Assembly (NCBI GenBank): GCA_019638595.1
Contig: JAHBTJ010000006.1
Span: 62,001 to 126,000 of the forward strand
DNA: 64,000 nt
Direction: 5' to 3'
Source: Chitinophagaceae bacterium
Lineage (GTDB): Bacteria > Bacteroidota > Bacteroidia > Chitinophagales > Chitinophagaceae
Shown here one piece after another: positions 38,116 through 53,789 of the stretch (positions are counted from its first letter, which is position 1; each line of letters starts with the position of its first letter). A program made the translations under genes and the position numbers. The notes beneath the pieces were generated by a model that was given only the letters and a program-made list of their open reading frames with translations, searched no databases and was not told the DNA's origin.

Positions 38116-40359
38116 TCAATTGATCTGGATCATTGCTGATTTTGGTACGCTTAACTTTCCGAATACGAGATTTTTGTCGGGGACAGATGTTATTTTTTTG
38201 AATTCTTTGCTGCTTACTTTGAAATATATCTTCCCATCAGAAACTTCTTTGACTGTCAAAGTTTCAATTTTTGTTTCTGATGTTTCTTTACCCGCATCTC
38301 TTATTACTATATCAATCTGATCGTGCCTGGCTATTCCCCGCGACTCTTTAGCATCAATATAAATGGAATGCTCACTTCCAACTTCGTTAAAACTCAATTG
38401 CAGATATACAGGAAAGTGCTCTCCCAGGATATCTTTCAGGTCTTTCTCTACTTTATTTACAATCTCTGTAATAGCAGCCATCTTGGTTCTTGCCATTCCC
38501 TGATCTGCCAGTGAACCTCCATATGCTGATCCAACGGCACCATCCAATGTTGATTCACCCGCAGATTTACCTTTGGTCAAACCTAATAAGCCCACTGCGC
38601 CCCCGGCAATAGCCTTTATATTTGCCTTCTTGAGTAGTCCCTTATTTTTTGTCTTTGAAATTTTATTAGATTGACCGCTCTCCATGTCCAATATTTCAAC
38701 GGTGTATCTGATCTCTCCTTCAAAACCGGCGTAGTTTATCTGTGTATCTTGGCTCCCCTGTGCTTTTACCGGTTTGGCATCTACCATATCCAGGTGGCAA
38801 AAAACAACTTTCCGTATGCCTTTCTGTTTTGCCTTTTCGAGCAATGTGGCGTGTTTAATTTTATTGTTGGTATTTGTTTCAAAACTGAACGGAAGGAGCA
38901 GTACGTTCAATTTTTCGCTATTAGTGCCTACGGCAGATTCCTTAAAAAGCTGTGCAGAATCATAAATAGAAAACCGGTTAAGCGCATTAGCGGCTACATT
39001 TATTCTGGCCGTCAGCAAATCAAGTGTTTCTTCGATGTCAATTTTTTCTTCCAGCCTTGCTTTGGCATCAGCGGTATATCGCACATTCCCGGTAGTATTG
39101 CTAACCGGTGTTGTAGCTGGTGCAAACCCGATTTGCAAGCCCTGGATGTCCTGTGCAGATGCGGTGTTTGCAGCAGCGGCCGCTGAAGGCTGTTGTGCAG
39201 GCAATCCCGGTAAATCGTAATTGTACACAAATTCTTTTGAATACTGATTTTCTTCAAATTGGGGATCAGAGGTATGTAATTTGCGCCAGTTGTTGGCAGC
39301 GCTTCGTTCTTCTACGCTTGATATATGATCTTCTATTCTTTTCAACCCGTCAAATGCATTGCCGAATATGCCGCTTTTTTCCTGCTTTCTTTTTGCCAGG
39401 TACTCTTTTGCCTTTTCAGTATCACCTGTCCATACATAAGTTTCTGCAAGGTTCATTAAGATATCCCGGTAAATTTTACCATTTATACGGGCATTCTTTT
39501 CATCTTTATATTCGGATAATGCTTTTTCCCAGATAGCGATGGCCTCTCTCAGTGTTTCCTGGCGTTTTTCATAATCCGGTTGTACCAGCGTGTTAATATA
39601 GGAAATCCGGTCGCTGGATATATACTTCACGGCAGAAGCAAAAAGATCTTTTGCTTTAGCAAGGTCATCGTAATTATGGTCTTTATGGCTGATGACATAT
39701 TCTATGTCGGTGCGTTTGGTTTGGTGGGTCAGGAGATATTTAACCAGGACGCCTCTCGCTTCTGAAGGGGTGGTTTTGAATGAATGCAGTTCATAGTCAG
39801 AAAGGAAGCTGTTACCCAGCTTATTCCAGGCAGCATTTAATTGTTCCGTGCTTATATAGTGATCCTTGTAGTTATCGGACCCGAACGAAGAATATTTTTC
39901 TTCTCCGCCAAATTTAGCTGATTCCAGTTGCCGGCCTTTATGAAGCAGCCTGATTGATATTTCCGGTGTATTATAATATACATAGTATATATGCGGATAG
40001 TACTTTTTTTCCGGAGCATCCTTTTTCTCTTTGTGAGTATATTCCTTTACTTCACTTTTCAGGCGTTTAAATTCCAGTTCCTTCAATACTTTTACTTCTA
40101 TTACCAGGTCGCCATTTTCTTTTACCGGCGCATATCCATTTAGAATGAAATTAGACGCCTCTCCTTCCCTGAGCAGCACGTTTCCCCACCGGGAGTGCAA
40201 TGCCGTAACATTAACCTGGTATGTTTTAATGTCTTCCGGCAGTCTTTTATACGGTAAGCGAACATAAGAAACCTGGAATTTTTCTTCCTTGGTTTTCTGT
40301 GCGCTTACATCCATCATAATGAAAGGAAGCAGGAGCAATACGAAGTGTTTATTTTTCAT
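38116..40359 (-). CDS. Secreted protein of unknown function, first gene of a four-gene operon
   Basis: A 747-residue protein; I start it at ATG 40359 where a signal peptide (MKNKHFVLLLLPFIMMDVSA) begins. The N-terminal ~365 residues match the protein at 33210-35120 and include a TPR-like stretch (LAETYVWTGDTEKAKEYLAK). After an Ala-rich linker (about 400-415) comes a different C-terminal region: LNVLLLPFSFETN, VVFCHLDMVD, EVEI-type strands and a Gly-rich helix (IKAIAGGAVGLLGLTKG), reminiscent of CsgG-like or surface-assembly folds, but this is a weak inference. A conserved upstream region with a decayed regulator 3' end lies 80-240 bp before the start. Confidence 0.7.
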   Translation of the reverse strand: MKNKHFVLLLLPFIMMDVSAQKTKEEKFQVSYVRLPYKRLPEDIKTYQVNVTALHSRWGNVLLREGEASNFILNGYAPVKENGDLVIEVKVLKELEFKRLKSEVKEYTHKEKKDAPEKKYYPHIYYVYYNTPEISIRLLHKGRQLESAKFGGEEKYSSFGSDNYKDHYISTEQLNAAWNKLGNSFLSDYELHSFKTTPSEARGVLVKYLLTHQTKRTDIEYVISHKDHNYDDLAKAKDLFASAVKYISSDRISYINTLVQPDYEKRQETLREAIAIWEKALSEYKDEKNARINGKIYRDILMNLAETYVWTGDTEKAKEYLAKRKQEKSGIFGNAFDGLKRIEDHISSVEERSAANNWRKLHTSDPQFEENQYSKEFVYNYDLPGLPAQQPSAAAAANTASAQDIQGLQIGFAPATTPVSNTTGNVRYTADAKARLEEKIDIEETLDLLTARINVAANALNRFSIYDSAQLFKESAVGTNSEKLNVLLLPFSFETNTNNKIKHATLLEKAKQKGIRKVVFCHLDMVDAKPVKAQGSQDTQINYAGFEGEIRYTVEILDMESGQSNKISKTKNKGLLKKANIKAIAGGAVGLLGLTKGKSAGESTLDGAVGSAYGGSLADQGMARTKMAAITEIVNKVEKDLKDILGEHFPVYLQLSFNEVGSEHSIYIDAKESRGIARHDQIDIVIRDAGKETSETKIETLTVKEVSDGKIYFKVSSKEFKKITSVPDKNLVFGKLSVPKSAMIQIN

Positions 40360-40439
40360 AAACAAAATATTGAGAGGTTTAATAATTGGTTGAGATGAGG
40401 TTTGTGTACAGTTGTGGAGCATTTATTGTTCATTCCATA

Positions 40440-40600
40440 ATGCTTTCTTTTCAAACATCGTCTTTGGCGAATGTAACATCCGTTTATTTTTGAGGTTGTC
40501 CCCATGGTAGGGATGTTCCTGAATGTTTTTTTTGATGATCTTTTGTAGCACCCTGGCCTGGCTACTATTAAAAAAAATGCAGCTACCTTATGAAGTTGAT
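40440..40600 (-). promoter_or_regulatory. Conserved upstream region, copy A (most decayed)
   Basis: Similar to 43270-43400 and 44930-45081. Shared blocks, plus strand: AATGTAACATC-NN-TTTA, then CATGGTAGG-ATGTTC, then a T-rich tract and AAATGCAGCTACCTT, which corresponds to the last codons of the regulator gene. Lies 81-241 bp upstream of the gene starting at 40359. Confidence 0.55.
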
Positions 40601-40692
40601 TTAAACAAAGTTTCAACCCTGACTATTTGACCAAATGAAAAAGTTGCACCCAACAGTAGCATCAGCGTCAATTTCAATCTTTTCATATTACC

Positions 40693-43191
40693 TTATTGTA
40701 CCTCTATTTTAAAATCAAAGTATCCCACATTGTTAGAGTAGTCAGCGTCATTAACGGCAATCTCAAGTAAGCCGCCGCTATCCATTTCGAATGTTTTAGG
40801 ACGTCCGGCATTCATCCACGAAGTGTTTTGTATTCTGATCATAAATGCCCCATGCGGTATTCTGCGTTCAATGCTATAATTATCATATCCGTTAGTTCCG
40901 GCAGGCGTTATTCCGTTCAGGGCCCAACCAAGCTTCATTGATCCGGTACAATATACCGCAATCTTATCCCCCTTTGCCAAACGCAATGTAGAAAGAAACT
41001 TATTTGTAACGGTTCCGCCATAAACCTTTTTGCCATCCTTTTCATACATCAGTTCCAGACCATTTATCTCCCGCTGCACCTTAGCGCGGCTTTCGCCGTA
41101 CGAGCCGATCAGACCTTGTAACATTCCCCCCATTAAATCCGGGCCGGTTGAATAGATTGTTCCCGACTCTACATCCCTGTAATATTTAGGACTAAAATCA
41201 GCATGTTTTAAAAAATTTGCCATATCATCATTGTTCCCGCTATTCCCTCCGGCTTTCTTGCTGCTGCCCTGAGCCTGAGAAAACCAAAATCTCGAGGCAA
41301 TTTCATTCTTAGCAACGCCAATTCCTTCATCGTAAAATTTAGACAAAACATTCATGGCCGATCCGTGTTTTTCTATTGCCGCATTTCTAAACCAGAAGAA
41401 AGCACTTTTTTCATCTTTGGCTATAAGCTCCCCTCCCTCGCTATATACCAATCCTAAGTGAAACATACCGTCAGGATTTTTTAAGTCGGCCGCCTTTTTA
41501 AACCAGTCCACCGCCACCTTTTCATTTTTTTTTATTCCCTGATTACCTAAATAAAATAGTTTGCCCAGGAAAACCATCGCATCTGAATTTTTCCGGGTCG
41601 CCGCCTGATTCGCAAATGATACTGATTTCTTTACATCCGGCTCTATATTTTCAGCATTGTTATATAGTAAAGCCATTGCCATCATTGCCCGGTCATCCCC
41701 CTTGCTTATACCACGATTATACCATGCAATGGCAGAATCAATATTCTTCTTAACATGGATGCCGTTTTCATACAAATCGCCTATTAATACCGCCGCCTGC
41801 GACAACCCAAGTTTGTAAGCCGACAAAGCATAGTCAAAAGCATCTTTATATTCACGGCTTAAAAACGAAATCCTGGATTTGTCGAACACTGCCGGTGGAA
41901 ATCCATTGTCTGCTCCTATGTCCAGCAAAAACTGGCTATTGTCTCTTTCTTTTCTGTACTTATCGAAATAATGGTAAATGCTGTACAGCAAAAACATAGC
42001 TTCAGGATCTCCCTTTCTAGCTTCATTTTTCAGGGTTTCCACTCGTTCCTTTTCATCTGACAAAGCATTATCACACTTTAATAAAAAACTCCAGACTTTC
42101 GCTTTTATATCGCCACTGTTAGCAAGACGTTTAATGTTTGACTTGTTGAGTTCCGCGGTGCCGGTACCAGCCCCATAGAAAAATGTAACTGCCTTCATTC
42201 GTTCATTTGGAATGGGAACCGGATATTTTTCTACTTTTTTCTCAAAAAATCCCTCTGCTGCTATACTTATTTTTGAAGAAGCAAGAAGAAAAGTATCCCT
42301 TCGCGTGCCATAAAACTCATAAATCAACACCTCTAAATCTATATGGTTAAGGTCAAAAAAGCCGGTTGAAACAGGATAACTGATTTTTGAAGCAGTTAAA
42401 GGTATCAGCAGATTATTTGTTTTTCTGTTCGTTCTATTATCCAGAAAAACCTTCTCTGCACTGTGCGCAGTAAGTATACCCATACGTTCTCTTTGTGAAA
42501 CCTGAGTTGCATTTGTAGTGCTTTGAGAAAATCCGAAGGAAATGCTGCCTGAATCGTTATATCTAAGCACACTGCTTTTATTAGCACCGCTCTCATATTT
42601 AAGATTTTCCAGTTTTACAAAATCAGGTTGAACAGTTGATTGAAACTCTGCAGGAACTTCAACTGAAGAGCGGCTAAGTTCCACTCGCATTTCATAGTTG
42701 CCGATCACTATTACCGGGCTTCTAAGTATATAGTTGTTCTCAGACTCAAGATAGTCAAAGTGGTACATGTCTAATGTCCATGGATGTTTCTTTTCATTCT
42801 CAATAATGCTGATCTCTTTTACTTTAAACCTTCCTGTAGCATCCATGTAGCCATATGCCTGTTTCTTTACTGTTTGAAGTTTGGCAAATGGAGAAATTGA
42901 ATTTCTGCTTACAACCCATGCACCTTTAGCCGATTGTTCCAGCAATACAGAATACCTGCCGTTGCCTAACGGGCTTATATACATCACTACTTCTAATGCG
43001 TTGTTAGGGTGATGTGATTTACCTTTCCATGTACCTGTAATATCTTTTGCGGAGCAAAAAATGTGAAACAAAAAGAAGATACCTGTAATGAATAATATCA
43101 TCCTGAAGCGTTGCAGGGCATTCCATTTGTACCTGCCTGATCGCTGGAATACAGGCACGTCAACAGTATTGAAGGTTAAAGGTTGTTTCAT
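40693..43191 (-). CDS. Secreted Sel1-repeat protein
   Basis: An 832-residue protein. The ATG at 43191 gives a long polar N-terminus before the hydrophobic leader; an ATG at 43101 (MILFITGIFFLFHIFC) gives a normal signal peptide and may be the true start. The mature N-terminus (ITGTWKGKSHHPNNALEVVMYI) looks like a lipocalin-like or immunoglobulin-like strand set. Five or so Sel1 units lie at about 470-650 (e.g. AVLIGDLYENGIHVKKNIDS, HLGLVYSEGG). The last 130 residues form a beta domain ending YFDFKIEVQ. Sel1 repeats mediate protein contacts. A PAS-HTH gene lies 174 bp upstream on the same strand. Confidence 0.75.
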   Translation of the reverse strand: MKQPLTFNTVDVPVFQRSGRYKWNALQRFRMILFITGIFFLFHIFCSAKDITGTWKGKSHHPNNALEVVMYISPLGNGRYSVLLEQSAKGAWVVSRNSISPFAKLQTVKKQAYGYMDATGRFKVKEISIIENEKKHPWTLDMYHFDYLESENNYILRSPVIVIGNYEMRVELSRSSVEVPAEFQSTVQPDFVKLENLKYESGANKSSVLRYNDSGSISFGFSQSTTNATQVSQRERMGILTAHSAEKVFLDNRTNRKTNNLLIPLTASKISYPVSTGFFDLNHIDLEVLIYEFYGTRRDTFLLASSKISIAAEGFFEKKVEKYPVPIPNERMKAVTFFYGAGTGTAELNKSNIKRLANSGDIKAKVWSFLLKCDNALSDEKERVETLKNEARKGDPEAMFLLYSIYHYFDKYRKERDNSQFLLDIGADNGFPPAVFDKSRISFLSREYKDAFDYALSAYKLGLSQAAVLIGDLYENGIHVKKNIDSAIAWYNRGISKGDDRAMMAMALLYNNAENIEPDVKKSVSFANQAATRKNSDAMVFLGKLFYLGNQGIKKNEKVAVDWFKKAADLKNPDGMFHLGLVYSEGGELIAKDEKSAFFWFRNAAIEKHGSAMNVLSKFYDEGIGVAKNEIASRFWFSQAQGSSKKAGGNSGNNDDMANFLKHADFSPKYYRDVESGTIYSTGPDLMGGMLQGLIGSYGESRAKVQREINGLELMYEKDGKKVYGGTVTNKFLSTLRLAKGDKIAVYCTGSMKLGWALNGITPAGTNGYDNYSIERRIPHGAFMIRIQNTSWMNAGRPKTFEMDSGGLLEIAVNDADYSNNVGYFDFKIEVQ

Positions 43192-43269
43192 CGTAACGTT
43201 TAAGAGTTATCGGTTCTTCGTAATTTTATTCTCCTGCTTTGCCTTTGAACAAAGGGAATATTTAGCTGT

Positions 43270-43365
43270 GTCTCAATACTTTCTTTTCAGACATTGCTCT
43301 TTAACGAATGTAACATCTCTTTACTTTTCAGTCAGTCACTATGGTAGGTACATTCCAAAATGTTT
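43270..43365 (-). promoter_or_regulatory. Conserved upstream region, copy B (next to intact regulator gene)
   Basis: This stretch between the regulator stop codon and the Sel1 gene is homologous to copies A and C. Blocks: AATGTAACATC, CTTTACTTTT, GTCACTATGGTAGGTACATT. Probably carries the promoter of the Sel1 gene or a binding site for the regulator. Confidence 0.6.
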
Positions 43366-44187
43366 TTATATTAGTCCTGCATGCTTAAAATACAATGCCG
43401 CTTCCTTTGCCGTACTAAAGCTTTTCCGGGAAAATGCTTCCGCTTTTTTTAAGATCCGTTTGTTGAATGTGTCTACTGTTGATTTTTTGATATTAAAAGC
43501 TTCTCCTATCGTTTCGCTGGTACTTTCTTTTTGCCGGGCATATGTTTGTAATATTCTTAATTCCTGGAAGGAAAAATTTGTATGCTCTGAAAATTTTTTC
43601 CGGATAAGCGTCAATAGTTTTTCACCTGTATGCATATCATGTCCGTTACCGGGATATATACGCGTGTGATAGCTTTCGTTGCTGAATTCTTTTATGACAT
43701 GAAAATAACAGAGGTATTCCATCATCCTGTTCCCCTCGGTTAACTGGAAGGGCGCACATTCCCGTTTACAATAAATGTATTTGCCTGTTGCATGTTTTAA
43801 CGCGATAATGCTGGCACAAACAGGCTGCATAAACTGTAGCCTGAGTTCATTATGCATGAGCAGCTCCAGTAAAGCCATGCTATAATAACCCTGCATGGCA
43901 GCATGCGTAGGGTGGATGATCTTCAGGTAGTCCCTGAGCGAAAAATCCGCATCAGCGTATCCCAGCCAACGGGCAACACCATTGCAATGCACAATCCTGT
44001 TCTCTGCCAGGCTTATAGTGAAATATATATGTTCCCGGTGTATCTCTTTATCCAGATGCTGCAATATGGCTTGCTGCTCAAAAGCGGAAACAGACGGTTT
44101 ATGGTGATCTTCGGACAGGTAGGCGGCTAACAGTTCCTCATGCATAATAGCAATATCGGGCGATATGTATTTCGAGATCTGAAGCAT
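43366..44187 (-). CDS. PAS-type and LuxR-like HTH transcriptional regulator
   Basis: A 273-residue cytosolic protein. Residues of about 40-190 have a PAS-like pattern (YFTISLAENRIVHCNGVARW, WLGYADADFSLRDYLKIIHP). The C-terminal ~65 residues are a LuxR/GerE-type helix-turn-helix (FSFQELRILQTYARQ, then GEAFNIKKSTVDTFNKRI). No receiver domain. It probably regulates adjacent genes: relics of paralogous regulator genes occur in the same relative position upstream of two other genes nearby. Ligand or signal unknown. Confidence 0.75.
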   Translation of the reverse strand: MLQISKYISPDIAIMHEELLAAYLSEDHHKPSVSAFEQQAILQHLDKEIHREHIYFTISLAENRIVHCNGVARWLGYADADFSLRDYLKIIHPTHAAMQGYYSMALLELLMHNELRLQFMQPVCASIIALKHATGKYIYCKRECAPFQLTEGNRMMEYLCYFHVIKEFSNESYHTRIYPGNGHDMHTGEKLLTLIRKKFSEHTNFSFQELRILQTYARQKESTSETIGEAFNIKKSTVDTFNKRILKKAEAFSRKSFSTAKEAALYFKHAGLI

Positions 44188-44270
44188 TGCGACGATATTG
44201 CTATTTATGCTTAATAGCCATTACCTGCCTGTTATCATCATTCTTTCTGAAAAAAATTATTAGTAAAGCA

Positions 44271-44303
44271 GGGGTTCCGAACCTTTAAAAGGTTCGGAAC
44301 CCC
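44271..44303. repeat. Perfect 33-bp palindrome (GAACC-type REP)
   Basis: Left arm GGGGTTCCGAACCTTT and its exact complement meet around one central A. The same core occurs at 45244-45274. Located downstream of the lipoprotein gene, upstream of the regulator gene; could act as a terminator-like hairpin. Confidence 0.7.
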
Positions 44304-44377
44304 TCAGAATCATGATCATTGCCCTGCAATAACGATGTTGTTTTTTTGTTGAAAGCTGGTTGAAAATAAAATGGTGT

Positions 44378-44854
44378 CTATTGTCGTGTAAAGGTCCATG
44401 TGACAGTATAAGTCACGCGTTCTACTAACGATACCTGAAGCTTTAAAGTGTGCTCATCCAATTGCGATATTGTATACCCCTCCTCATTCCAGTCATCTGC
44501 CCAATCATCCCCCTCAAACATAAGTATTTTCCCATCATTCGTTAGCGTCCACTGCCCGGGTTCGATCGGATAATCATCATCGCATGGCAAGGAACCATAA
44601 TCGCCTTTCACGGTACCATCGGACATAAAAATTGTAAGATTATCTTGTTCACAAGATTCCAATAAAGTAAAGATATCGGTATCAAGGGTGCCGTCGCCAT
44701 CCCAGTCAACAGGCGGTGAAATTGTCCTGGCGGTCAATTTCCATGTTCCCACCAGCAATGCCTTCCGGTCGTTTCCCGGCTTGGGATCATTATCTTTTTT
44801 GCAGGCAGTAGCAATCATTGAAAATAAAATCAGGCAGGAGATTATCTTTCTCAT
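44378..44854 (-). CDS. Small lipocalin-like lipoprotein
   Basis: A 158-residue lipoprotein; I use the ATG at 44854 (MRKIISCLILFSMIATAC, lipobox Cys18). The frame is open 15 codons further up. After a polar spacer comes LLVGTWKLTARTISP, the start of the lipocalin-like pattern common in Bacteroidota lipoproteins, then a DWDGDGTLDTD segment that could bind calcium, and strands up to TVTWTFTRQ. Ligand unknown. Confidence 0.7.
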   Translation of the reverse strand: MRKIISCLILFSMIATACKKDNDPKPGNDRKALLVGTWKLTARTISPPVDWDGDGTLDTDIFTLLESCEQDNLTIFMSDGTVKGDYGSLPCDDDYPIEPGQWTLTNDGKILMFEGDDWADDWNEEGYTISQLDEHTLKLQVSLVERVTYTVTWTFTRQ

Positions 44855-44929
44855 ATGTTTTTTTAAAGATGATTCAATATACATTTTCAACATTAGCATA
44901 AAGATCAGCAGGCATGTTGTTGCACTGTA

Positions 44930-45021
44930 TCAATATGCTTATGTTGCTCAGTATCAGCGGCAAATGTAGTATCCCTTTACTTTTAATGCTGTCACTATGA
45001 TAGGTATATTTATTATTGCTT
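44930..45021 (-). promoter_or_regulatory. Conserved upstream region, copy C
   Basis: Closest to copy B: CCTTTACTTTT, GTCACTATGATAGGTATATT, then TTTTATATTAGTCCTGCATGCTT, which continues into a relic of a regulator gene. Lies 76-170 bp upstream of the lipoprotein start. Confidence 0.6.
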
Positions 45022-45081
45022 TTATATTAGTCCTGCATGCTTGCAATACAACGCTAATCCATTTTTATTAATCGGGAGCAT
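45022..45081 (-). pseudogene. Relic of a PAS-HTH regulator 3' end
   Basis: On the minus strand the frame reads NGLALYCKHAGLI and a stop; the intact regulator at 43366-44187 ends EAALYFKHAGLI and a stop. The stop codon and following sequence are conserved too. Upstream codons show no further match, so only the tail remains. Confidence 0.65.
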
Positions 45082-45182
45082 TCAGTTTTAAAACCCGGTA
45101 CTTAAGTAAAGTATGCAATTACTCAACCACCCGCACGTTTGCGAGCCCGCCTGCATTAAAATCTGAGTTAAAGCAAAAATTT

Positions 45183-45284
45183 GGCGGGAGAAGCAATCCT
45201 CGTGCATATTCATCTTTCAAACAGAGGAGACTGCTTGCCTGTAGGGTTTCGAACCTTCCAAAGGTTCGGAACCCTTCTCCCGCC
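45183..45284. repeat. Nested inverted-repeat element containing a GAACC palindrome
   Basis: GGCGGGAGAAG (45183-45193) and its exact complement (45274-45284) enclose the palindrome GGGTTTCGAACCTT...AAGGTTCGGAACCC (45244-45274, one mismatch). No protein; MITE- or REP-like. Confidence 0.55.
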
Positions 45285-45477
45285 GCAAACTGCCTTTAAT
45301 TCCCCGGCGGTCTCGCAGGAGACGGCAAAAGTGTTTTGGTTTTACGACCAACACTAAAGCAAAGTATACATTTAAAAAGCTGCAATAAGGAGGCTGTTGT
45401 TGCAGTAAGCTGCTTACATTATACATTTGCAATAAAAGAATGAGAAATAATGGCACATGGCAGCTACGCCGTAAAAA

Positions 45478-45579
45478 TTATTGTATCAGCGTAAAATCTG
45501 CCCAATAGTACGGCGCGTATTTTTTACGCATGGTTTGTTGTGTATGTAAAAATGTCTCTCGAATGGTTTTGCCGTTCAG
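45478..45579 (-). pseudogene. Relic of a second CHAT-protease gene (last 33 codons)
   Basis: The minus-strand frame reads LNGKTIRETFLHTQQ, continues TMRKKYAPYYWADFTLIQ and stops. The intact protease at 46724 ends LNGKTIREAFLHTQQ, IMRKQYAPYYWAGFTLVQ and stops. 28 of 33 residues agree. A stop codon follows two codons upstream of the match. It lies on the far side of the nuclease gene. Confidence 0.85.
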
Positions 45580-45642
45580 GGCTTACCGCGTCATGCAGAG
45601 GGAAGGCGTCACTCATGGTGAGAGGGGGTGAGTATTTACTAA

Positions 45643-45676
45643 AAAACGGCTGTTACCTGATGATAACAGCCGTTTT
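45643..45676 (-). terminator. Strong intrinsic terminator after the nuclease gene
   Basis: AAAACGGCTGTTA pairs perfectly over 13 bp with TAACAGCCGTTTT across an 8-nt loop. Read on the minus strand it ends in a T6 run, 21 bp past the nuclease stop codon. Confidence 0.8.
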
Positions 45677-45696
45677 CTTATACGGTTCACAAGGTC

Positions 45697-46653
45697 TTAT
45701 GCCTTCTTTTTTCCTTTCACCTTTTTTACAAAGGCTTCGGTAACACCGGCAAATCCGGCAATTTCTGCAACGGTAAATTTACCGGCGTCGAGGAGGTTTT
45801 GCACTACCTGGAGTTTACCTTTTTCAATGCCCTTCTCAATACCTATTTCAATACCTTCCTCCCGCTCTATTTTCTTTATGGTTTCTATGATACCCATGGC
45901 GATGGTCCCTCCTGTTAATTGATTGATCTGTGTATCAAATTTACGGTTTATTTCTTCATTTCCAATGTAGATAAAATTTTTCAAAAAGAACAACAGCTTT
46001 TCTATCTTCTCATGGCTGAATTTTTTGCTTTGTATCAACGCCCTTGCTACGGTAAGCCGGTGGTTAGCCAGTTCTTTTTCAGGCACTTTGCCCTGTAACA
46101 ACGCTTTTTGTGCCGCCAGCACAATCAAGGCAAAAGGATTATCCATCGCCAGCAGTTCCTTTTCAGAGTGGTCAAATATATGATAGGCATTATAGCGGTA
46201 GGTAATTTCAGTTCCCATAAATGTTTTATGGAACGTATCGGGGTGCTGCTGGCGCTTATTGCCTGTGAATATTGCCAGGGCGGTTACATCTACGGCATAG
46301 CGGTCGTATATCCTGTACCAGTACTGGAACATGCGTTTGGGAAAATACTTTATGCTGCCACCCTGTATCTCAATATGCACCAGTATCCACTCTTCTCTGC
46401 CGTTTTTGAGGAATGTTTTTACCAGCATATCTACAAACCTGCTGCCGCCCTGTTTTGTAAGTTCAGGAAACAATTCGATCAGTTCCTTATCAAGAAACAC
46501 AAAGCCTTTACGGAAATCGAATACTTTGGTAGCATTGGTAAAACAAAAACGAAGCAGGTGGGGAAAGAGTTCTTCAAAAGCCGCCTTTAAAAGAGAATCG
46601 TCTTTTTTGCGGGGTGTGGTATTATCATGGTCACGCATAGCCTTTTTGTTCAT
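45697..46653 (-). CDS. Rpn/YhgA-like PD-(D/E)XK nuclease (putative recombination-promoting)
   Basis: A 318-residue cytosolic protein. The nuclease core reads GGSRFVDMLVKTFL (Asp75) and WILVHIEIQGG (Glu95, Gln97), the D...ExQ pattern of the Rpn/transposase_31-like group. The C-terminus has the Glu/Lys/Gly-rich repeats (GIEIGIEKGIEKGK) and a small helix-turn-helix-like end typical of the group. E. coli Rpn proteins cut DNA and raise recombination. A second ATG at codon 6 is possible. The gene sits 70 bp after a CHAT gene and is followed by a relic of another CHAT 3' end. Confidence 0.8.
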   Translation of the reverse strand: MNKKAMRDHDNTTPRKKDDSLLKAAFEELFPHLLRFCFTNATKVFDFRKGFVFLDKELIELFPELTKQGGSRFVDMLVKTFLKNGREEWILVHIEIQGGSIKYFPKRMFQYWYRIYDRYAVDVTALAIFTGNKRQQHPDTFHKTFMGTEITYRYNAYHIFDHSEKELLAMDNPFALIVLAAQKALLQGKVPEKELANHRLTVARALIQSKKFSHEKIEKLLFFLKNFIYIGNEEINRKFDTQINQLTGGTIAMGIIETIKKIEREEGIEIGIEKGIEKGKLQVVQNLLDAGKFTVAEIAGFAGVTEAFVKKVKGKKKA

Positions 46654-46723
46654 AGCAGGGTGTTTTACTTTGTATAGCGTTTATAACAGGTTAAATGTAA
46701 GATATTTTCCCGGTAAGGAATAA

Positions 46724-49555
46724 TTATTGCACCAGCGTAAAACCTGCCCAATAGTACGGCGCGTATTGTTTGCGCATGATTTGTTGCGTATGTAAAAATG
46801 CTTCGCGGATGGTTTTACCGTTCAGCCAATAAGTATAAAATGTTTCCATAAATTCGGAGGTTTCTTTATCGGGCACCTGCCAGAGACTGGCCATTACATA
46901 ATCCACCCCAGCCAGCTTAAATGCCCTTTGCAGGCCAAACACGCCTTCGCTTCCTTCTATTCTTCCCAGCCCGGTTTCACAGGCAGACAAAACAGCCAGT
47001 TGTGTATTGGGCAATTGTACGGCACTTATCTCCAACCCCGTCAGTATGCCGTCGTCTTCATTCAACCCGGCTTCGCCTTTCCAGCCTTTATTACCGCCCG
47101 CCATTACCAGCCCGCAACGCAACAGGGGATTGTCTGACGCTTTAAAAACTGCACCGGCATCGTTTTCCTGTACCGTATCAGGCAGTGTAAAACCGTGGGT
47201 GGCAAAATGAATAACTTCGGGAGAATGATCACCTCCCAAATTTCTGAAAACCGCTTCCGTGGCATTATCTGCAGTAAATGCGACGGCTCTTTTTTGTAAA
47301 GTCTCTGTATTTGTTTTTATGGTATTGATCTCTTGTAAAGTATGGGGAAGAAAACTAAAAGAATCCAGGTCAGCGCCACGGCTTTCGCGGTACACCCAGG
47401 CATAAGGATCGGGAGACACCGGAACACCCGCATCAGCAGACTGGCGGCTATAATTGATACCGCCAAACATAGCAATCGAAACAGGGGCGGGCGACCGAGA
47501 TTCCTGCAAGGCTACCTGCCGGGTAGAAGCAAGCTGTATAAGATCGTACCTGTCGCAAAGCAATTCATTGCTTTTGCAAGGTATGGCGGCAAAGGCCACC
47601 CGGTGCAGCATACCGGCAGGTGAAAAATATACCGTTTTAGTTTCGGTAAGATAAGACTCTAATGGCTGCCATACCAATTGGTACAGGGCATTTGTGGCGC
47701 TTTGGTGCCGTGCTGCTGCTTTTCTTCCCCTGCTGTTTAGAACCGCTTTGTAAGGAAATTTTTTTATGGCATCCGTCAGTTGCCTTCTTTCGCACAACAC
47801 TATAAACTGAGGTGCACTATCTTGCGGGCGAAGCAGTAAAGCTGCGTAATAAACAGTGTCGGCTTCCGCCCTGGTAGTAATATATTTACCGTTGAACCTG
47901 ACAAATTCAATAGCTGTTTCGCCGGGTTTCAGGCTTCTTCGAATATCCTGCCAGGTAATAGCCAGGTTTTCCTTCATATCCCGGTAGTCCGCTGACCGGC
48001 GCAATATCTCCTTTTCCTGCCGGTTCAGCACCTCGCCAACAGAGTCCGTATTGATATTTCTTTGGGTTACAGGCGTAAGTAAAAGGTTTGTATAAAAAGA
48101 CTTTTGCTGCAGGTAATTTTGCCAAAGTGTGCTAAGCGTACTATCTCTTGGCTGCGTCATATTTTGATACAGTGTCCTGGTATTTTGTAAACCGATGCTA
48201 CCTGCCAGCAGCCTGCTGTTGTAGGCGGCCCCCGCAATTGCCGGAGTTGTATGACGGAGTAAAAAACGGTAAGGACTACTCTCCGCAACATCTTTGTTCG
48301 CTCTTATATAGGCAAGCAATTCCATCTCAGATAAAAACTCCAGCTTTTCCAGCAGTAGTTTATTTTCTGCAGTCATCGCTTCCTGTAAGTATATCGCTGC
48401 CTTATCAACATCATCGGCATATAACAATTCCGCCATATCATGAAGCACTTTCAGCCGGTCGGAATGTAGTTCCATACCCAGCCCGTTGTAAATAGCCAGG
48501 CATTTTTGAAATAAAGGCTCTGCCAGCTTTTTTCTGCCGGTCAAAGCATACAACCTGGCTAAATTTTTAGTGCTATAAGCATAATAGGTAAATGCTTCCC
48601 CGCCATTTTCACGGATAATTTCCGCTGCTGCTTCCAGGTAGCTTTCCGCTACTTCATATTTTCCCATCTCCATATTTACGATGCCCAGGCGGTTTAAGAT
48701 CGGGATATTATTAGCAGCGTTTTTGCCTATGGCCTGTTCCCGGATGTCCAATGCCTTCCTGAACATCGAATCGGCTTTCTCCAGGTGTCCATTACGCTGG
48801 TATATATCCGCCAGGCTACCTATTCCTTGGGTATATGCGGGATGCTTTTCTGAATATGTCTCCTTTATGCCTTCGAAAAGCCGTACTATCGTTGTATTCA
48901 GCTTTTCATAAAATCCCATTTTTCTATAGAGTATGATTAAATGTGACAGGCCTGATAAGTAAGCACCTCCATCAACAGGTTCCCGGAGCGCTATTTCACA
49001 TACATTCGTGGATAATTCATCTGCCTTTTTCAGGTTGCCGGTTTTCATATGGAAATAGGCATAATTGATCAGGTAACTGGTATAAAATGCTTTATAATAT
49101 CCGCCATCGCCCTGATTATATAAACTATCTATTTTCCCAAAAATATCTGTTATGTTTTGAAAATGTTGCTCAGCCTCTTGAAACCATTGCTCAGCATCCC
49201 GGTATTGCCCTAAATCGGTGTACACTCTTCCAAGACATACAATAAGACATCCATACTCCGCACTATTTTCTCCATATATTTTTTTTGTCTTCTCAATAGC
49301 TTTCCCATAATAAACCCGGGCGCTGTCCAGTTTCATCAACTCAACATAAATCGCGGACAATTTGTTCGTAACAGATATATAGGCGCTGTCGTTTCCGGTA
49401 TTTTTTACCGCTTCGAAGCTTCTTTTTGCGAAAGGCAATGCCAGGGCATATTGGCCTTTGTTGATGTAATATATTGCGGAGTCCATTTCGCCCTGTTCCT
49501 GGGCACGAGCCAGCAGGCAGAAAAGTATTCCCGTAAGTACTAAAAACAATTTCAT
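46724..49555 (-). CDS. Exported TPR-CHAT caspase-like protease
   Basis: A 943-residue protein from ATG 49555, where a signal peptide (MKLFLVLTGILFCLLARAQ) starts; an ATG at 49582 adds nine residues. Residues of about 25-400 contain many TPR units (e.g. GCLIVCLGRVYTDLGQYRDA, LNRLGIVNMEMGKYEVAESY). The CHAT domain (about 650-943) has both catalytic motifs: HFATHG with His787 and SACETG with Cys859, so it should be an active cysteine protease. Such domains act in cell death, and in type III-E CRISPR loci as Csx29. With a signal peptide it would work in the periplasm. An anti-sigma-like and a sigma gene lie upstream. Confidence 0.85.
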   Translation of the reverse strand: MKLFLVLTGILFCLLARAQEQGEMDSAIYYINKGQYALALPFAKRSFEAVKNTGNDSAYISVTNKLSAIYVELMKLDSARVYYGKAIEKTKKIYGENSAEYGCLIVCLGRVYTDLGQYRDAEQWFQEAEQHFQNITDIFGKIDSLYNQGDGGYYKAFYTSYLINYAYFHMKTGNLKKADELSTNVCEIALREPVDGGAYLSGLSHLIILYRKMGFYEKLNTTIVRLFEGIKETYSEKHPAYTQGIGSLADIYQRNGHLEKADSMFRKALDIREQAIGKNAANNIPILNRLGIVNMEMGKYEVAESYLEAAAEIIRENGGEAFTYYAYSTKNLARLYALTGRKKLAEPLFQKCLAIYNGLGMELHSDRLKVLHDMAELLYADDVDKAAIYLQEAMTAENKLLLEKLEFLSEMELLAYIRANKDVAESSPYRFLLRHTTPAIAGAAYNSRLLAGSIGLQNTRTLYQNMTQPRDSTLSTLWQNYLQQKSFYTNLLLTPVTQRNINTDSVGEVLNRQEKEILRRSADYRDMKENLAITWQDIRRSLKPGETAIEFVRFNGKYITTRAEADTVYYAALLLRPQDSAPQFIVLCERRQLTDAIKKFPYKAVLNSRGRKAAARHQSATNALYQLVWQPLESYLTETKTVYFSPAGMLHRVAFAAIPCKSNELLCDRYDLIQLASTRQVALQESRSPAPVSIAMFGGINYSRQSADAGVPVSPDPYAWVYRESRGADLDSFSFLPHTLQEINTIKTNTETLQKRAVAFTADNATEAVFRNLGGDHSPEVIHFATHGFTLPDTVQENDAGAVFKASDNPLLRCGLVMAGGNKGWKGEAGLNEDDGILTGLEISAVQLPNTQLAVLSACETGLGRIEGSEGVFGLQRAFKLAGVDYVMASLWQVPDKETSEFMETFYTYWLNGKTIREAFLHTQQIMRKQYAPYYWAGFTLVQ

Positions 49556-49581
49556 AAACTGCTGTTGATACTGAAAGACCA

Positions 49582-49659
49582 TTTTTCTAAAGCATCCGGT
49601 ATTTTTTCCGCATCCTTTACTAATATAGGATTTTCCTTATTAGCAGCAATATTGTTTTC
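49582..49659 (-). pseudogene. Relic of a second anti-sigma-like gene 3' end, touching the CHAT gene
   Basis: The frame reads NNIAANKENPILVKDAEKI then PDALEK; the intact gene at 50398-51321 ends RNIVNNKQDPALVKNAEKI, LDSIGK, stop. About half the residues are identical. The ancestral TGA stop position now reads TGG, overlapping the ATG at 49582. Upstream the frame is stopped within a few codons. Confidence 0.7.
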
Positions 49660-49753
49660 TTTTTTCTATGATCCTGAAGTAGTAAGAAGTATAACCTTGA
49701 TTGATTATCCCAATAGTTTGCTAAATTTGTTCGTTAAATAAGTTTAGTCTGGT

Positions 49754-49976
49754 ATGTACACTACTTATCATCTGGCATCGGCGCAAGAAATTACTACCGA
49801 TGTTATAGAAGCCATTAAAGCAGCCTTTAAAACTAAACCCGTCAAACTTACTGTTGAGGTGGAAGACAATGAAACAGGGTATTTGTTAAGCAATCCTGCC
49901 AATAAAGCCATGCTGCTACAATTCTATTGAACAGGATAAAGACGGGCAATCCATCACCACCAACATTAAAGACTAA
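49754..49976 (+). pseudogene. Frameshifted Phd/YefM-like antitoxin gene
   Basis: The frame starts MYTTYHLASAQEITTDVIEA and runs to GYLLSNPANKAMLLQ, a pattern common in short Bacteroidota antitoxins, then stops at 49928-49930. Removing one base near 49919 restores a natural tail (NSIEQDKDGQSITTNIKD, stop at 49974-49976). So the gene carries a +1 frameshift. Downstream, LKPVAFEQYNE followed by stop may be the start of a decayed RelE/YoeB-type toxin. Confidence 0.65.
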
Positions 49977-50113
49977 TACCGGATATACAGCTTAAGCCTG
50001 TCGCTTTTGAACAATACAACGAGTAAATATGATATAAAGGTTACCGGGGGAAGATACACCACCTTGTGTACAGTGACACCAATGAATAGCTTGTTAGTCG
50101 TCCGTACTTATTG

Positions 50114-50224
50114 TCAGGCGTGCTGTTCCCGCATTATCTTTCTGAAGTCTGCAAGTTCCTGCTCTGTCCACGGTTCGGACTTAGTTGATAAGTCTACATT
50201 TTTGGGTTCTTTTATCAGTCCCAT
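50114..50224 (-). CDS. Short ORF (36 aa), possible partner of an acetyltransferase toxin
   Basis: The frame reads MGLIKEPKNVDLSTKSEPW then TEQELADFRKIMREQHA. The LIKEP...VD...PWT..EL.DFRK pattern resembles small proteins encoded next to GNAT-like genes in Bacteroidota, as far as I can recall. It starts 4 bp after the stop of the GNAT relic on the same strand. It may be shortened at its C-terminus. Function unproven. Confidence 0.5.
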   Translation of the reverse strand: MGLIKEPKNVDLSTKSEPWTEQELADFRKIMREQHA

Positions 50225-50228
50225 ATTA

Positions 50229-50402
50229 TTAGCTTTTGAAATATTGTGAAATAAGTCTTAATGCAGCACTCGTTTCAATAAACATTCTAAGTCCACGAAA
50301 ATGTGTCGCATGAAGTGTTTGTTCATAATGTCTGATTAATGCCGACTTAGCATCAAATGCAAGAAAGCCTTGATAACCCTTCTCCACCGGCAAAAGATCA
50401 CT
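50229..50402 (-). pseudogene. 3' remnant of a GNAT-type acetyltransferase gene
   Basis: About 57 codons are open: SDLLPVEKGYQGFLAFDAKS, ALIRHYEQTLHATHFRGLRM, FIETSAALRLISQYFKS and stop. The GYQGF-AF-AK--LI-HYE-TL-A pattern fits the last part of GNAT proteins of the toxin-like group in Bacteroidota. The 5' part is gone; the fragment starts at the stop codon of the anti-sigma-like gene, so a deletion or insertion joined the two. Confidence 0.65.
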
Positions 50403-51321
50403 TACCTATACTATCCAGTATTTTCTCCGCGTTTTTTACCAATGCGGGATCCTGCTTATTGTTAACAATATTCCTGCACAGCTCAACCGCTTTTTCCCTG
50501 TTATTTTCTTTTAAATACGCTAACACCAGGTGCCATTGCGCTTTAACCTTTAACGCTTTACCCGGTTGGTTGTTTACTACCCAATCCAGGTTTATTATGG
50601 CTTCCTTAGTATTGCTGGTTTGTAAAAAGGCCAGCCCTTTATAATAATGTCCCAGTTGCAAAATGTTTTCTTTGCTGTCTGTTCCATTGGCGCCGCGGGT
50701 TTGGGGCAGGTTGTTCAGACTTAATTGTTGCAGGGTTTGGTAATTACCGGATTCATAGTCTGTTAATGCCGCTGCCAGGTAAAGGGGATAATTTTCGGGC
50801 AGCGCCTCTTTTTTGAAATATTGTTTGAACAGGAGCGCCAGGTCAACCATCCTGCCGTTGTCTTTTGCCGGTTCGGTTTCCGGCTTGTTTACTGTTACCT
50901 GGTCACTCTTTTGTTGTAAAGTATTTGTATCCGGCCTGTTTGTAACAACCAGGGCTGCCTGCGGCGTATCAGTATCGTTCATATCCGAAACAACCGGGGC
51001 TTTTCGCGGCTTTTGCCAAAATATGGTAAAGAGCATACAAGCTGTTATAACGGCAGCGCCAACGGCAATCCATTTTCGCATACTCATTATCCTGCCGGGC
51101 ATTGTATGGTCTGCCGGGTTCTCTTTTGCAGGCACGGTACCCGGCAGGCTGGTGATGTTGCCTAAAGCGAAATTATCTCTCAACGATTGTTCAAAGTCAA
51201 GCTGCGCACGCATTTCAGGATGGGAGTCCAGCTCTTTTTCAAATGCATTCATTTCATCCGGCTCCATGTCCGCATCCAGGAAACGGATGATCCTTTCGTA
51301 TTGTTCGCTTGTAATGCTCAT
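50398..51321 (-). CDS. Anti-sigma-factor-like membrane protein with periplasmic TPR region
   Basis: A 307-residue single-pass protein. The cytosolic N-terminus (EQYERIIRFLDADMEPDEMN, AFEKELDSHPEMRAQL) has the helical layout of Bacteroidota anti-sigma factors and lacks a zinc-binding HxxxCxxC motif. One membrane helix lies at about 84-102. The periplasmic part has a Thr/Pro-rich linker (105-165) and TPR-like helices (about 180-305). It lies downstream of a sigma factor and upstream of the CHAT gene. Its periplasmic part is the natural candidate partner or substrate of the protease (inference). Confidence 0.7.
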   Translation of the reverse strand: MSITSEQYERIIRFLDADMEPDEMNAFEKELDSHPEMRAQLDFEQSLRDNFALGNITSLPGTVPAKENPADHTMPGRIMSMRKWIAVGAAVITACMLFTIFWQKPRKAPVVSDMNDTDTPQAALVVTNRPDTNTLQQKSDQVTVNKPETEPAKDNGRMVDLALLFKQYFKKEALPENYPLYLAAALTDYESGNYQTLQQLSLNNLPQTRGANGTDSKENILQLGHYYKGLAFLQTSNTKEAIINLDWVVNNQPGKALKVKAQWHLVLAYLKENNREKAVELCRNIVNNKQDPALVKNAEKILDSIGK

Positions 51322-51332
51322 ACCGGAAATAT

Positions 51333-51440
51333 TTATAGTTTGTGGTTTTTAGTTTATAGTGGAGCTTTGAGCTATCAGCTATCAGCTATCAGCAATCAGC
51401 GGTCAGGTGTTTATAGTTTATAGTTTTTTGTTTATAGAGG
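51333..51440. repeat. Heptad tandem array H4
   Basis: TTTATAG-type units, then AGCTATC, AGCTATC, AGCTATC, AGCAATC, AGCGGTC (51370-51404), then TTTATAG-type units again. The best-preserved stretch of the family in the window. Confidence 0.8.
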
Positions 51441-51473
51441 TATTTCCTGTGCTCTGAAGAACGGTCGGTGTTC

Positions 51474-51569
51474 AGCTAAATAGCTATCAGCTATCGGGTG
51501 TTTAGGCACGCACATAAATTAAACTACAAACCATAAACCATAAACATCAAACCTGTAACCTGCAACCTT
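51474..51569. repeat. Heptad tandem array H5
   Basis: AGCTAAA, AGCTATC, AGCTATC (51474-51495), a short gap, then AAACTAC, AAACCAT, AAACCAT, AAACATC, AAACCTG, TAACCTG, CAACCTT (51521-51569). The last unit is 1 bp from the sigma factor stop codon at 51571. Confidence 0.75.
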
Positions 51570-51570
51570 C

Positions 51571-52188
51571 TCATCCTTTTTCCATCTCTTCCATCAAATT
51601 CCGCAATCTTTCCATGCACCTGTAAATACGGCTGGTAGCAGAATCTACTTTAATAGCCAAAAGCGCTGCTATCTCATCATTTGATTTTTCTTCAATATGC
51701 CTCCACTGGATGATCTGCCTGTCTGTGGCAGGTATTTTCGCCAAAGCCTGCATAAGGTTTTGGTAATCTTTTTCTTTCATTTCAGTTTCTGTTTCACCGG
51801 TATGGTACCCGGTTTCGTTTGGGAAATGCAGCGCCAGCTTTTTGTTTTTTTCAGCCAGCCGTTCCTCCTCTTTTAAATGACTTAACAATTGGTACCTGCA
51901 ATATTTGAACAATACCGTTTTTACGCTGGCATTGCTTTGATAAAGCTCACCGCGGCCGGCAGATTCTTTTAATTTCAGCACGCCGTCTGTAAAAGAATCA
52001 TTGGCTAAAGCTTCAATAAGGTCAACGGGATAGTGCCGGTAAGTTATTGTAGCCCATTTTACAAACAGTAGCCGGTAGCAGGAATAAAAGCAGGTAATGA
52101 TATGTTCGGAAATATCCTGCCGGTTGTTTTTAAATGCAGAAGAGATCGTCTCTATATTTAGCAACTTCTGGCAGTTTGTACGCTTCAT
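51571..52188 (-). CDS. RNA polymerase sigma factor, ECF/sigma-70 family
   Basis: A 205-residue regulator. Region 2 covers about 30-100 (YRLLFVKWATITYRHYPVDL resembles the core-binding helix) and region 4 about 135-205, with IPATDRQIIQWRHIEEKSND followed by EIAALLAIKVDSATSRIYRC, a clear recognition helix set. It should direct transcription of its own cluster when released by the anti-sigma-like protein encoded next on the same strand (250-bp gap). Start at MKRTNC is the only good choice. Confidence 0.85.
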   Translation of the reverse strand: MKRTNCQKLLNIETISSAFKNNRQDISEHIITCFYSCYRLLFVKWATITYRHYPVDLIEALANDSFTDGVLKLKESAGRGELYQSNASVKTVLFKYCRYQLLSHLKEEERLAEKNKKLALHFPNETGYHTGETETEMKEKDYQNLMQALAKIPATDRQIIQWRHIEEKSNDEIAALLAIKVDSATSRIYRCMERLRNLMEEMEKG

Positions 52189-52570
52189 TGATTGTAATTG
52201 AATCGCTCTCTTGTTCAGTTGCCAAATATAAAATCTCCGGGTGTAACCACCAAGCCGGAAGGGTGCATTTCAAACTTTCTCATTCAAAGAATATCATTAT
52301 TATTCACAGGTATGGTTTGCGCAGGAGAACTTTTCTTACCGAAGGTAAATCTGCCTGGCATCTGTACTGATGCTCAACATTTGTCCCATTGCCCGACAGA
52401 TTTCTCACCCGCCGTGATATGCTTTTAGTTCAGAATGCCAGGAGGGCGGGTTCGAAATGACGCTGCAAGGGTTATTCACTGCGCTCCCCTCCTGATGAAG
52501 ATTAATGAGTTAGCGACACGTCATTGGCAGGCACGAGACATCTGCACTCGCTATTTCTGTTACCGGCCAG
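52189..52570. other. Intergenic region, nothing recognised
   Basis: Upstream of the sigma gene and downstream of the efflux adaptor. I see no gene, strong hairpin or array here; the sigma promoter should lie within it. Confidence 0.5.
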
Positions 52571-52645
52571 CTAAACTATAAACAACAAACTATAAACAAA
52601 CTATGCCCACAGCCGATAGCTCATCGCTAACGGCTACCAGCTATC
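52571..52645. repeat. Heptad tandem array H6
   Basis: AAACTAT, AAACAAC, AAACTAT, AAACAAA, then AGCCGAT, AGCTCAT, CGCTAAC, GGCTACC, AGCTATC (52611-52645). Ends 4 bp from the stop codon of the adaptor gene. Confidence 0.7.
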
Positions 52646-52649
52646 TCCA

Positions 52650-53789
52650 TCAATGATGATCATCCTCCGATGAATTTTTCATTTTTGCCAGCACCGGGTA
52701 GGCATTTTTCATGATGATCTTTTTACCCGTTATGTTCTCCCCGGTACTGATCAGCTCAACCATGCCTTTTTCTGTAACTCCCGTTTCAACAGGCAGTAGC
52801 CTGAATGTATGGGCGTTGGTATTTTCCAGTATGAACTTGTCTTTGCCGTAACGAACCACCGCTTCATCAGGAACGGCGGGCACCTCGGTATTGCTTATTT
52901 TGATCCTGGCATTCAGGAACATGCCCGGTAACAGTTGCTTGGGTTGTTTTTCAAAATGACAGTGAACCAGCGCGCTCCGGTTATCATCCACATTTTTCGT
53001 TACCAGCAGCACCTCGCACTCATATTCGGCTGAAGGGTCATCCACAAAAGTTACCATTACCTGCTGTTTAGGCTTTACCTTTCCCAGGTCTTTTTCAAAA
53101 ACCGTCAACGCGGCATGTATATCATCGGGATTGATCAGCTCGAACAGAACATCGGACGGGTTTACATATTTACCGATGTTCACATTTACTTTTGATACAA
53201 ATCCATTGATGGGAGAGTATACCGGCACGCTCCGTGAAATATTTGTTTCATCCAGCTTTGCGGGGTCAATGGCTATCAGCCTCAGTTTTTCCTCATAGCC
53301 TTTTACCAGTATTTTTTGAGAGGTATATGCCGCTTTCGCCTGCTGGAATATTTTATCGGCGCTTACATTGCTTTGATTAAGCACTGTTTGCCGTTCAAAA
53401 TCCTTTTCCGCGTATTCGAGGCTTGCTTTAGCCACCAGGTAATCCTGCTGCAATTGTATCAGGGCAGGGTCTTCTATGGTGGCGATTATTTCTCCCTTGT
53501 TTACATGCATGCCCGGCAGCAGTCCCGTACGTTTCAAATATCCTCCCAGCGGAAAGCTGATGGACACTATATTTTGCGGTGGCACATCCACCAACCCGTT
53601 TACTTTGAGCTCGCTGTTCAGGGTTCTTTTTTCGATCACTCCTGTTTCAACGCCCGCATTTTTTAATTGCTCCTCTGTTAGTGTTATTACATCCACAGAT
53701 TGTTCTTCTGTATGTTCTTCGTGCTCCTGACCGGGAGAACAGGCTCCGGCAAAAAGAAAAGCTATATATATAATATTGAAATAACGCAT
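52650..53789 (-). CDS. RND heavy-metal efflux periplasmic adaptor (CzcB/CusB-like lipoprotein)
   Basis: A 379-residue membrane-fusion protein anchored by a lipobox (AGAC, Cys17). His/Glu-rich ends (GQEHEEHTEEQ after the lipid anchor, SSEDDHH at the C-terminus) fit metal binding. A barrel/lipoyl pair (IISISFPLGGYLKR; GEIIATIEDPALI) flanks a short helical hairpin (about 120-160), with YSPINGFVSKVNVNIGKYV after it. It should link the pump to the outer-membrane channel. 3 bp separate it from the pump gene. Confidence 0.85.
   Translation of the reverse strand: MRYFNIIYIAFLFAGACSPGQEHEEHTEEQSVDVITLTEEQLKNAGVETGVIEKRTLNSELKVNGLVDVPPQNIVSISFPLGGYLKRTGLLPGMHVNKGEIIATIEDPALIQLQQDYLVAKASLEYAEKDFERQTVLNQSNVSADKIFQQAKAAYTSQKILVKGYEEKLRLIAIDPAKLDETNISRSVPVYSPINGFVSKVNVNIGKYVNPSDVLFELINPDDIHAALTVFEKDLGKVKPKQQVMVTFVDDPSAEYECEVLLVTKNVDDNRSALVHCHFEKQPKQLLPGMFLNARIKISNTEVPAVPDEAVVRYGKDKFILENTNAHTFRLLPVETGVTEKGMVELISTGENITGKKIIMKNAYPVLAKMKNSSEDDHH

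Follow-up and report, generated by a model that had tools for sequence, protein, structure and literature searches.

Whether an exported caspase-like protein can control a sigma factor from outside the inner membrane is the question raised by three genes of a Chitinophagaceae bacterium (7.06-Mb genome in 52 contigs). The genes lie on the minus strand of a 64,000-nucleotide stretch of contig JAHBTJ010000006.1 (positions 62,001 to 126,000; hereafter the window) and encode an extracytoplasmic function (ECF) sigma factor, an anti-sigma-like membrane protein with tetratricopeptide repeats (TPRs), and a TPR-CHAT protein. A sequence-only reading had proposed that a periplasmic CHAT protease may cleave the anti-sigma protein in its outer part and so switch the sigma factor on, independently of clustered regularly interspaced short palindromic repeats (CRISPR). 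The trio is very probably a real functional unit. Its probable role is signalling at the cell surface, with the caspase-like protein helping to turn the sigma switch on. The features concerned are as follows, with amino acids (aa), open reading frames (ORFs), AlphaFold2 (AF2) models and predicted local distance difference test scores (pLDDT) abbreviated.

51571..52188, minus strand: ECF-type sigma factor, 205 aa (TIGR02937 62.9 bits, cut-off 42.9; Sigma70_r4_2 E 2e-9, Pfam seeing region 4 only)
50398..51321, minus strand: single-pass TPR anti-sigma-like protein, 307 aa (AF2 pLDDT 81; relatives follow the sigma gene in trios)
51151..51321, minus strand: putative sigma-binding N-terminal three-helix part, residues 1–57 (AF2 helices 5–57; weak RseA profile match)
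51016..51087, minus strand: predicted anti-sigma transmembrane helix, residues 79–102 (AF2 model; hydropathy)
50404..50841, minus strand: anti-sigma outer TPR-like domain, residues 161–306 (AF2; PDB profile; Foldseek)
46724..49555, minus strand: TPR-CHAT protein, predicted to be exported, with 943 aa if read from the revised start (Pfam CHAT E 5e-57; AF2)
49502..49555, minus strand: signal-peptide-like N terminus MKLFLVLTGILFCLLARA (hydropathy; orthologs)
46730..47698, minus strand: CHAT domain (Pfam, residues 629–951 of the 952-aa ORF)
47195..47197, minus strand: predicted catalytic His787 (kept in 53/53 trios)
46979..46981, minus strand: predicted catalytic Cys859 (kept in 53/53 trios)

The neighbourhood was surveyed in 60 genomes of the family, not chosen by similarity to the window, from which all CHAT loci were retrieved. 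CHAT matches occurred in 32 of the 60 genomes (73 matches in total, 71 yielding a CHAT ORF by profile), and 33 of the 73 had an adjacent sigma gene with a TPR anti-sigma gene (16 co-directional, 6 divergent, 11 convergent). Seven convergent pairs came from the first pass, and a six-frame rescan of the remaining loci added L068, L077, L058 and L055; the first three of these contain both genes, and L055 is counted by its anti-sigma gene alone, its sigma gene lying beyond the end of the retrieved stretch. L061, with a lone sigma gene, no anti-sigma gene and a response regulator as the other match, and L096, with a non-adjacent sigma factor of 410 aa, were rejected as linked loci. The window genome has four CHAT genes, three of which (window, C23 and C51) directly follow a sigma gene and a TPR anti-sigma gene in this order; the fourth (C9) does not. 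In a second set of 78 loci across Bacteroidota (22 of them <10 kb), chosen by similarity to the CHATs of the window's own gene-order class D, a sigma gene and a gene for a protein with a single transmembrane (TM) segment were found within 4.5 kb in 26 loci; the pair was upstream and co-directional in 18 of them, divergent in 4, downstream and co-directional in 2, and convergent in 2. The linked taxa include Terrimonas, Niabella, Paraflavisolibacter, Spirosoma, a Catalimonadaceae strain and Saprospiraceae metagenome-assembled genomes (MAGs); three of the 26 loci (L117, L134, L184) were already in the first collection as L035, L039 and L040. The seven closest relatives (L113–L119) all have the pair, located downstream of CHAT in L118. 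The neighbourhood is conserved across genomes, as the sequence-only reading required. No description of this linkage in Bacteroidota was found in the open-access PMC literature searched, subscription papers being outside its scope.

Gene order fell into five classes. Class A (L005, L054, L062, L084, L087) has the order sigma, anti-sigma, CHAT, and class B (L007, L085, L088, L090, L091, L092, L095, L099) the order sigma, anti-sigma, often a subtilase, CHAT, the subtilase being confirmed by Pfam in L007, L091 and L092. In class C (L079, L082, L086, L089, L094), sigma and anti-sigma genes are divergent from an operon with a PKD/DUF7619/DUF7849 protein and CHAT (domains confirmed by Pfam in L082 and L094). 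Class D comprises the window and its relatives, and class E consists of a lipoprotein-size gene and CHAT with the sigma pair convergent downstream. A PorV gene (type IX secretion) lies directly downstream of the class A CHAT in L005 (2208–3329), the locus covered by the Pfam check for PorV in this class. Peptidase S8 subtilases are encoded just before CHAT in L007 (6479–7996), L092 (5166–6695), L091 (3107–4564) and L096 (5742–7169), in the last case without a sigma pair nearby. The lipoprotein-like gene (∼300 aa) preceding class E CHATs (L006 6863–7753, L067 6198–7121, L073 6305–7297) gave no Pfam match in L006 and occurs also where no sigma pair was seen. L036, L037 and L038 contain tandem TPR-CHAT arrays that lack sigma genes; by eye, the neighbouring genes are asparaginyl-tRNA-synthetase-like and Rho-like.

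That the genes adjoin by chance or synteny, with no functional link, is most improbable. In its favour, the window genome contains 68 ECF sigma factors over the cut-off, and by arithmetic for this genome ∼12% of 3-kb genes would be expected within 4.5 kb of one of them. Linkage of 33/73 CHATs in three orientations, its absence from all long CHATs without a signal peptide (0/7; 1772–1819 aa) and the co-evolution of all three proteins argue against such an origin. Co-evolution was tested with 53 trios. Nearest relatives agreed in 25/53 cases for sigma/anti-sigma, 19/53 for sigma/CHAT and 26/53 for anti-sigma/CHAT vs ∼1 after shuffling (maximum 7–8 in 2000 shuffles). Mantel correlations of tree distances for the three protein pairs were 0.34, 0.26 and 0.25, with 0/3000 shuffles as high; plain identity distances gave weaker values of 0.19, 0.10 and 0.18, with 0, 45 and 1 of 2000 shuffles as high, respectively. 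For members of the five classes, the nearest relative belonged to the same class with one exception, a class C CHAT. The shuffles keep shared organism history, yet several classes occur within one genome (A, B and D in the window genome). On a tree with sigma labels, these changed 9 times vs 21.9 times after shuffling, a count that is only indicative because the sigma labels of L061 and L096 were false and convergent pairs were unlabelled.

The anti-sigma-like protein adjoins the sigma gene and contains one TM-length helix. It had no Pfam match and only sub-threshold matches to NCBIfam, one of them to an anti-sigma model (E 0.0019). Its AF2 model (23 rows) comprises helices at residues 5–57, a TM-length helix at 79–102, a low-confidence linker and helices at 161–306. 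A profile of 29 relatives (A2) matched TPR structures in the PDB, the best 60 of 204 matches being TPR proteins, and the best TPR structure found by Foldseek was 2xev_A (E 0.0069, TMt 0.79). The N-terminal profile gave three PDB matches, the second being RseA (1or7_C, E 0.025), a weak likeness to a known sigma-binding domain. Model, profile and hydropathy are consistent with the predicted single-pass protein, in which one membrane helix is followed by a periplasmic TPR domain. The outer domain appears exchangeable, because the anti-sigma-like proteins in L121 (6892–7590) and L186 (6002–6859) have an outer part without TPR in Pfam.

In the TPR-CHAT protein, Pfam identified TPR_12 (E 3.4e-34) besides CHAT. 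The residue numbers first assigned to the catalytic pair, His787 and Cys859, were retained, and the start at 49582 was not; position 49555 is the likely start because of an ATGA overlap with the upstream remnant frame and a matching start in near-orthologs. Five of seven near-ortholog CHAT ORFs (L113, L114, L115, L117, L119) begin with MK plus a hydrophobic stretch at the matching place; the ORFs called in L116 and L118 are longer. By hydropathy, the protein carries an export signal, in line with the signal peptide proposed earlier, and a cytosolic location is unlikely. With this signal on CHAT and a single membrane helix followed by TPR on the anti-sigma protein, both could meet outside the inner membrane. 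The predicted catalytic residues were invariant in the aligned trios, and in a wider CHAT set His was kept in 180/180 and Cys in 178/178 aligned rows (7 and 9 rows gapped there, respectively). The predicted dyad points to a protease, not to which substrate it cuts. The AF2 model (28 rows) had a pLDDT of 80.7 and a predicted template modelling score (pTM) of 0.81. PADLOC assigned CHAT to a generic TPR model only (E 8.7e-11), gave no match for sigma or anti-sigma, and no specific defence match for the trio.

Searches of the PDB linked the CHAT domain to another anti-sigma factor. A profile of 21 linked CHAT domains matched DdvA first (8rot_B, E 1.9e-12, chain residues 836–977, His and Cys aligned), followed by the Craspase TPR-CHAT (1.2e-9) and Csx29 (0.0085); the window CHAT domain alone matched nothing relevant in the PDB. 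Foldseek with the CHAT model also ranked DdvA first (E 2.7e-14), followed by separase, Csx29 and Craspase. DdvA is the anti-sigma factor of DdvS in Myxococcus xanthus, and its signal is stated as unknown in PMC4374960.

In the mechanism that we favour, the single-pass anti-sigma protein would hold the ECF sigma factor through its N terminus in the cytoplasm and would have its TPR domain outside. The separate TPR-CHAT cysteine protease would be exported to the compartment of this domain, tethered in several classes by a C-terminal membrane helix, and would dock on the anti-sigma protein, TPR to TPR. Upon an envelope signal, CHAT would cut the outer part of the anti-sigma protein, and RseP-type intramembrane and cytosolic proteolysis would follow; one strong match to M50 (RseP-type) was found in the window genome (E 1.2e-52). 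The freed sigma factor would then transcribe its targets, including the CHAT operon in the divergent class (positive feedback). From topology and co-evolution, together with the fusion in DdvA and the precedent of Csx29–Csx30, we consider it fairly probable that CHAT acts on sigma through the anti-sigma protein; on the same grounds, action by cutting it is given slightly less than an even chance.

Several observations weigh against this mechanism. No sigma pair was seen with 40 of the 73 CHAT matches, several of the unlinked loci ending at contig edges, and the sigma-CHAT Mantel correlation was weak by plain identity (r 0.096; 45/2000 shuffles as high). The dyad is equally conserved in CHATs without a sigma pair and is thus not a marker of sigma function. 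Structurally, the Cys loop of the CHAT model is of low confidence (residues 859–868 below 50), the Foldseek superpositions are globally poor (TM ∼0.25 to DdvA), and the anti-sigma model had no Foldseek fold match at E ≤ 0.001. Compartment (from sequence), docking, cleavage, release and signal are all inferred. Finally, the operon of the window copy is interrupted, not compact.

Upstream regions were analysed for promoter motifs. In 5/5 class C loci, the pattern GGTAACA-N16-GATMTAY precedes the operon leading to CHAT, 16–42 bp before its first gene, a match by construction since the pattern was derived from these loci. Independent of this derivation is the result of an exact genome scan: G029, G035, G002 and G065 contained no further site, whereas four were found in G022, of which one lies within the sigma gene and another in front of a lipoprotein gene next to CHAT. 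Beyond the promoter of the class C locus itself, the exact sites in G022 at C1:600798–600827, which precedes a lipoprotein-like gene next to CHAT by 37 bp, and at 689841–689870 are possible extra sigma targets. The window genome, which has no class C locus, contained two unrelated sites; the backward-pattern control gave 0 in the five class C genomes and 1 in the window genome. The class C CHAT operon appears to carry an ECF-type promoter, which looks like the sigma factor's own. By eye, L040, L051, L130, L161 and L163, which are divergent loci of class D, did not show the class C motif as such. The motif TATATTTG was present in 7/8 class D sigma upstream regions, 42–55 bp before the start codon, and absent in L118; we take it to resemble the phylum's housekeeping −7 element TAnnTTTG. 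In class E, sigma was preceded by GGTTACA in 5/7 cases and the CHAT operon by GGTWACA in no more than 3/8, within 170 bp; with a background of 37/593 genes within 200 bp, a role as promoter element is suggestive only. The motif in the window is listed here.

52223..52230, minus strand: TATATTTG, presumed housekeeping-type −7 element upstream of the sigma gene (7/8 class D sigma upstream regions)

The class C promoter bears on the direction of the pathway. CHAT may be an output, with sigma and anti-sigma sensing envelope stress and inducing an exported CHAT protease that acts on other proteins, secreted or of the envelope, and with PorV, subtilase and PKD/barrel-like neighbours as partners or substrates. 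This alternative also fits, given that the promoter in front of the CHAT operon in class C looks like the sigma factor's own; the location of CHAT on its own transcript in convergent loci and the neighbouring genes themselves (PorV in L005; S8 subtilases in L007, L092, L091 and L096; PKD/DUF7619/DUF7849 in L082 and L094) favour it too. By itself it explains neither the DdvA fusion nor the co-evolution of CHAT and anti-sigma, and we regard it as unlikely, with an appreciable residual probability. Still less likely, CHAT would sense or co-inhibit without proteolysis, like a split DdvA: its TPR-CHAT body would bind a ligand and clamp the anti-sigma protein. The retention of His and Cys in 53/53 trios, aligned in DdvA too, speaks against this reading; the points in favour of the clamp are that the anti-sigma DdvA itself contains a CHAT domain and that its signal is given as unknown in PMC4374960.

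The layout of the window copy was compared with that of L114, a Chitinophagaceae MAG contig with the same flanking genes and a CHAT 77% identical to that of the window. Two features lie between the anti-sigma and CHAT genes.

49654..50392, no strand assigned: ∼740 bp of extra DNA that is not in the syntenic ortholog L114 (DNA alignment with L114)
49573..49653, minus strand: 3′ end of the anti-sigma gene in a second copy, ATGA-joined to the CHAT start region (tblastn, blastn)

As described earlier, the three genes share one strand; that this copy is not a compact operon had been overlooked: the distance between anti-sigma and CHAT is ∼815 bp in the window vs 22 bp in L114. The last ∼68 bp of the anti-sigma gene occur twice, around the extra DNA (second copy: tblastn 14/24 identical, E 8e-5; blastn 44/60, E 4e-6), and both copies align to one stretch of L114. 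Apart from the anti-sigma gene at its edge, no ORF >95 aa overlaps the extra DNA. DNA identities to L114 were 75% for sigma, 73% for anti-sigma and 80% for CHAT; long flanking blocks were more conserved (82.6–90%), and in shorter blocks on the way from CHAT to the genes downstream the identity fell to as little as 67%. A remnant of a tandem sigma/anti-sigma pair, as might be suggested by L119, was rejected as the source of the second 3′ end, the extra sigma gene of L119 being followed by a lipoprotein gene, not an anti-sigma gene. A small plus-strand ORF in the extra DNA was likewise rejected as antitoxin, its one Pfam match, to T4 baseplate, staying below threshold (E 0.096). A 127-bp part of the extra DNA recurs elsewhere in the window genome (G000:C19:6394–6520, 69% identical). 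Just downstream of CHAT, an Rpn-type nuclease/transposase-like gene was located (45697–46653; TIGR01784 E 2.9e-8, below cut-off).

If the favoured mechanism is true, the caspase-like protease-to-sigma logic of one CRISPR subtype would be common envelope signalling in a major phylum, with the fused version (DdvA) already solved, and many exported TPR-CHATs of Bacteroidota (33/73 in the family sample) would gain a role and a substrate. It would also bear on the recruitment of caspase-like proteases to signalling. Class C offers, in addition, a concrete promoter motif.

Among known systems, DegS-RseA-sigmaE resembles the trio in having a membrane anti-sigma under an outer protease, together with the weak N-terminal likeness to RseA. 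DegS is a PDZ serine protease, where the trio has a CHAT cysteine protease with TPRs. Neighbourhoods of EACC2, caspase and TRADD-N with an ECF sigma and the TPR protein DUF1822 (PMC8195603) share with the trio the linkage of a TPR protein and an ECF sigma to a caspase-like domain; judged by description, they differ in the caspase-like family and the constant domain. In the type III-E CRISPR system Csx29-Csx30-CASP-sigma, cutting of the inhibitor relieves sigma inhibition, according to PMC10028731. A TPR-CHAT protease, an inhibitor and an ECF-like sigma are encoded together there as well, whereas Csx29 is RNA-activated via Cas7-11, and the protease of the trio is predicted to be exported and its anti-sigma to be a single-pass membrane protein. 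No Cas family was found among nine window proteins scanned (38116–53789), a genome-wide search for Cas7-11 not having been made; together with the conserved, co-evolving neighbourhood, this supports the CRISPR-free system proposed initially. DdvS-DdvA (PDB 8rot, 8rw5) likewise combines an ECF sigma with a transmembrane anti-sigma that has a CHAT domain, but in one fused polypeptide, where the trio has a separate, apparently exported CHAT and an anti-sigma with its own small TPR domain; no anti-sigma N-terminal match was found in any of 200 CHAT ORFs. DdvA is a natural anti-sigma/CHAT fusion. Tentatively, and at less than even odds, we suggest that Bacteroidota contain a widespread CRISPR-free extracytoplasmic caspase-like TPR-CHAT that would be the site-1 protease of an ECF sigma/anti-sigma switch family, with DdvA as its fused form and Csx29-Csx30-sigma as a cytosolic, RNA-triggered relative in logic.

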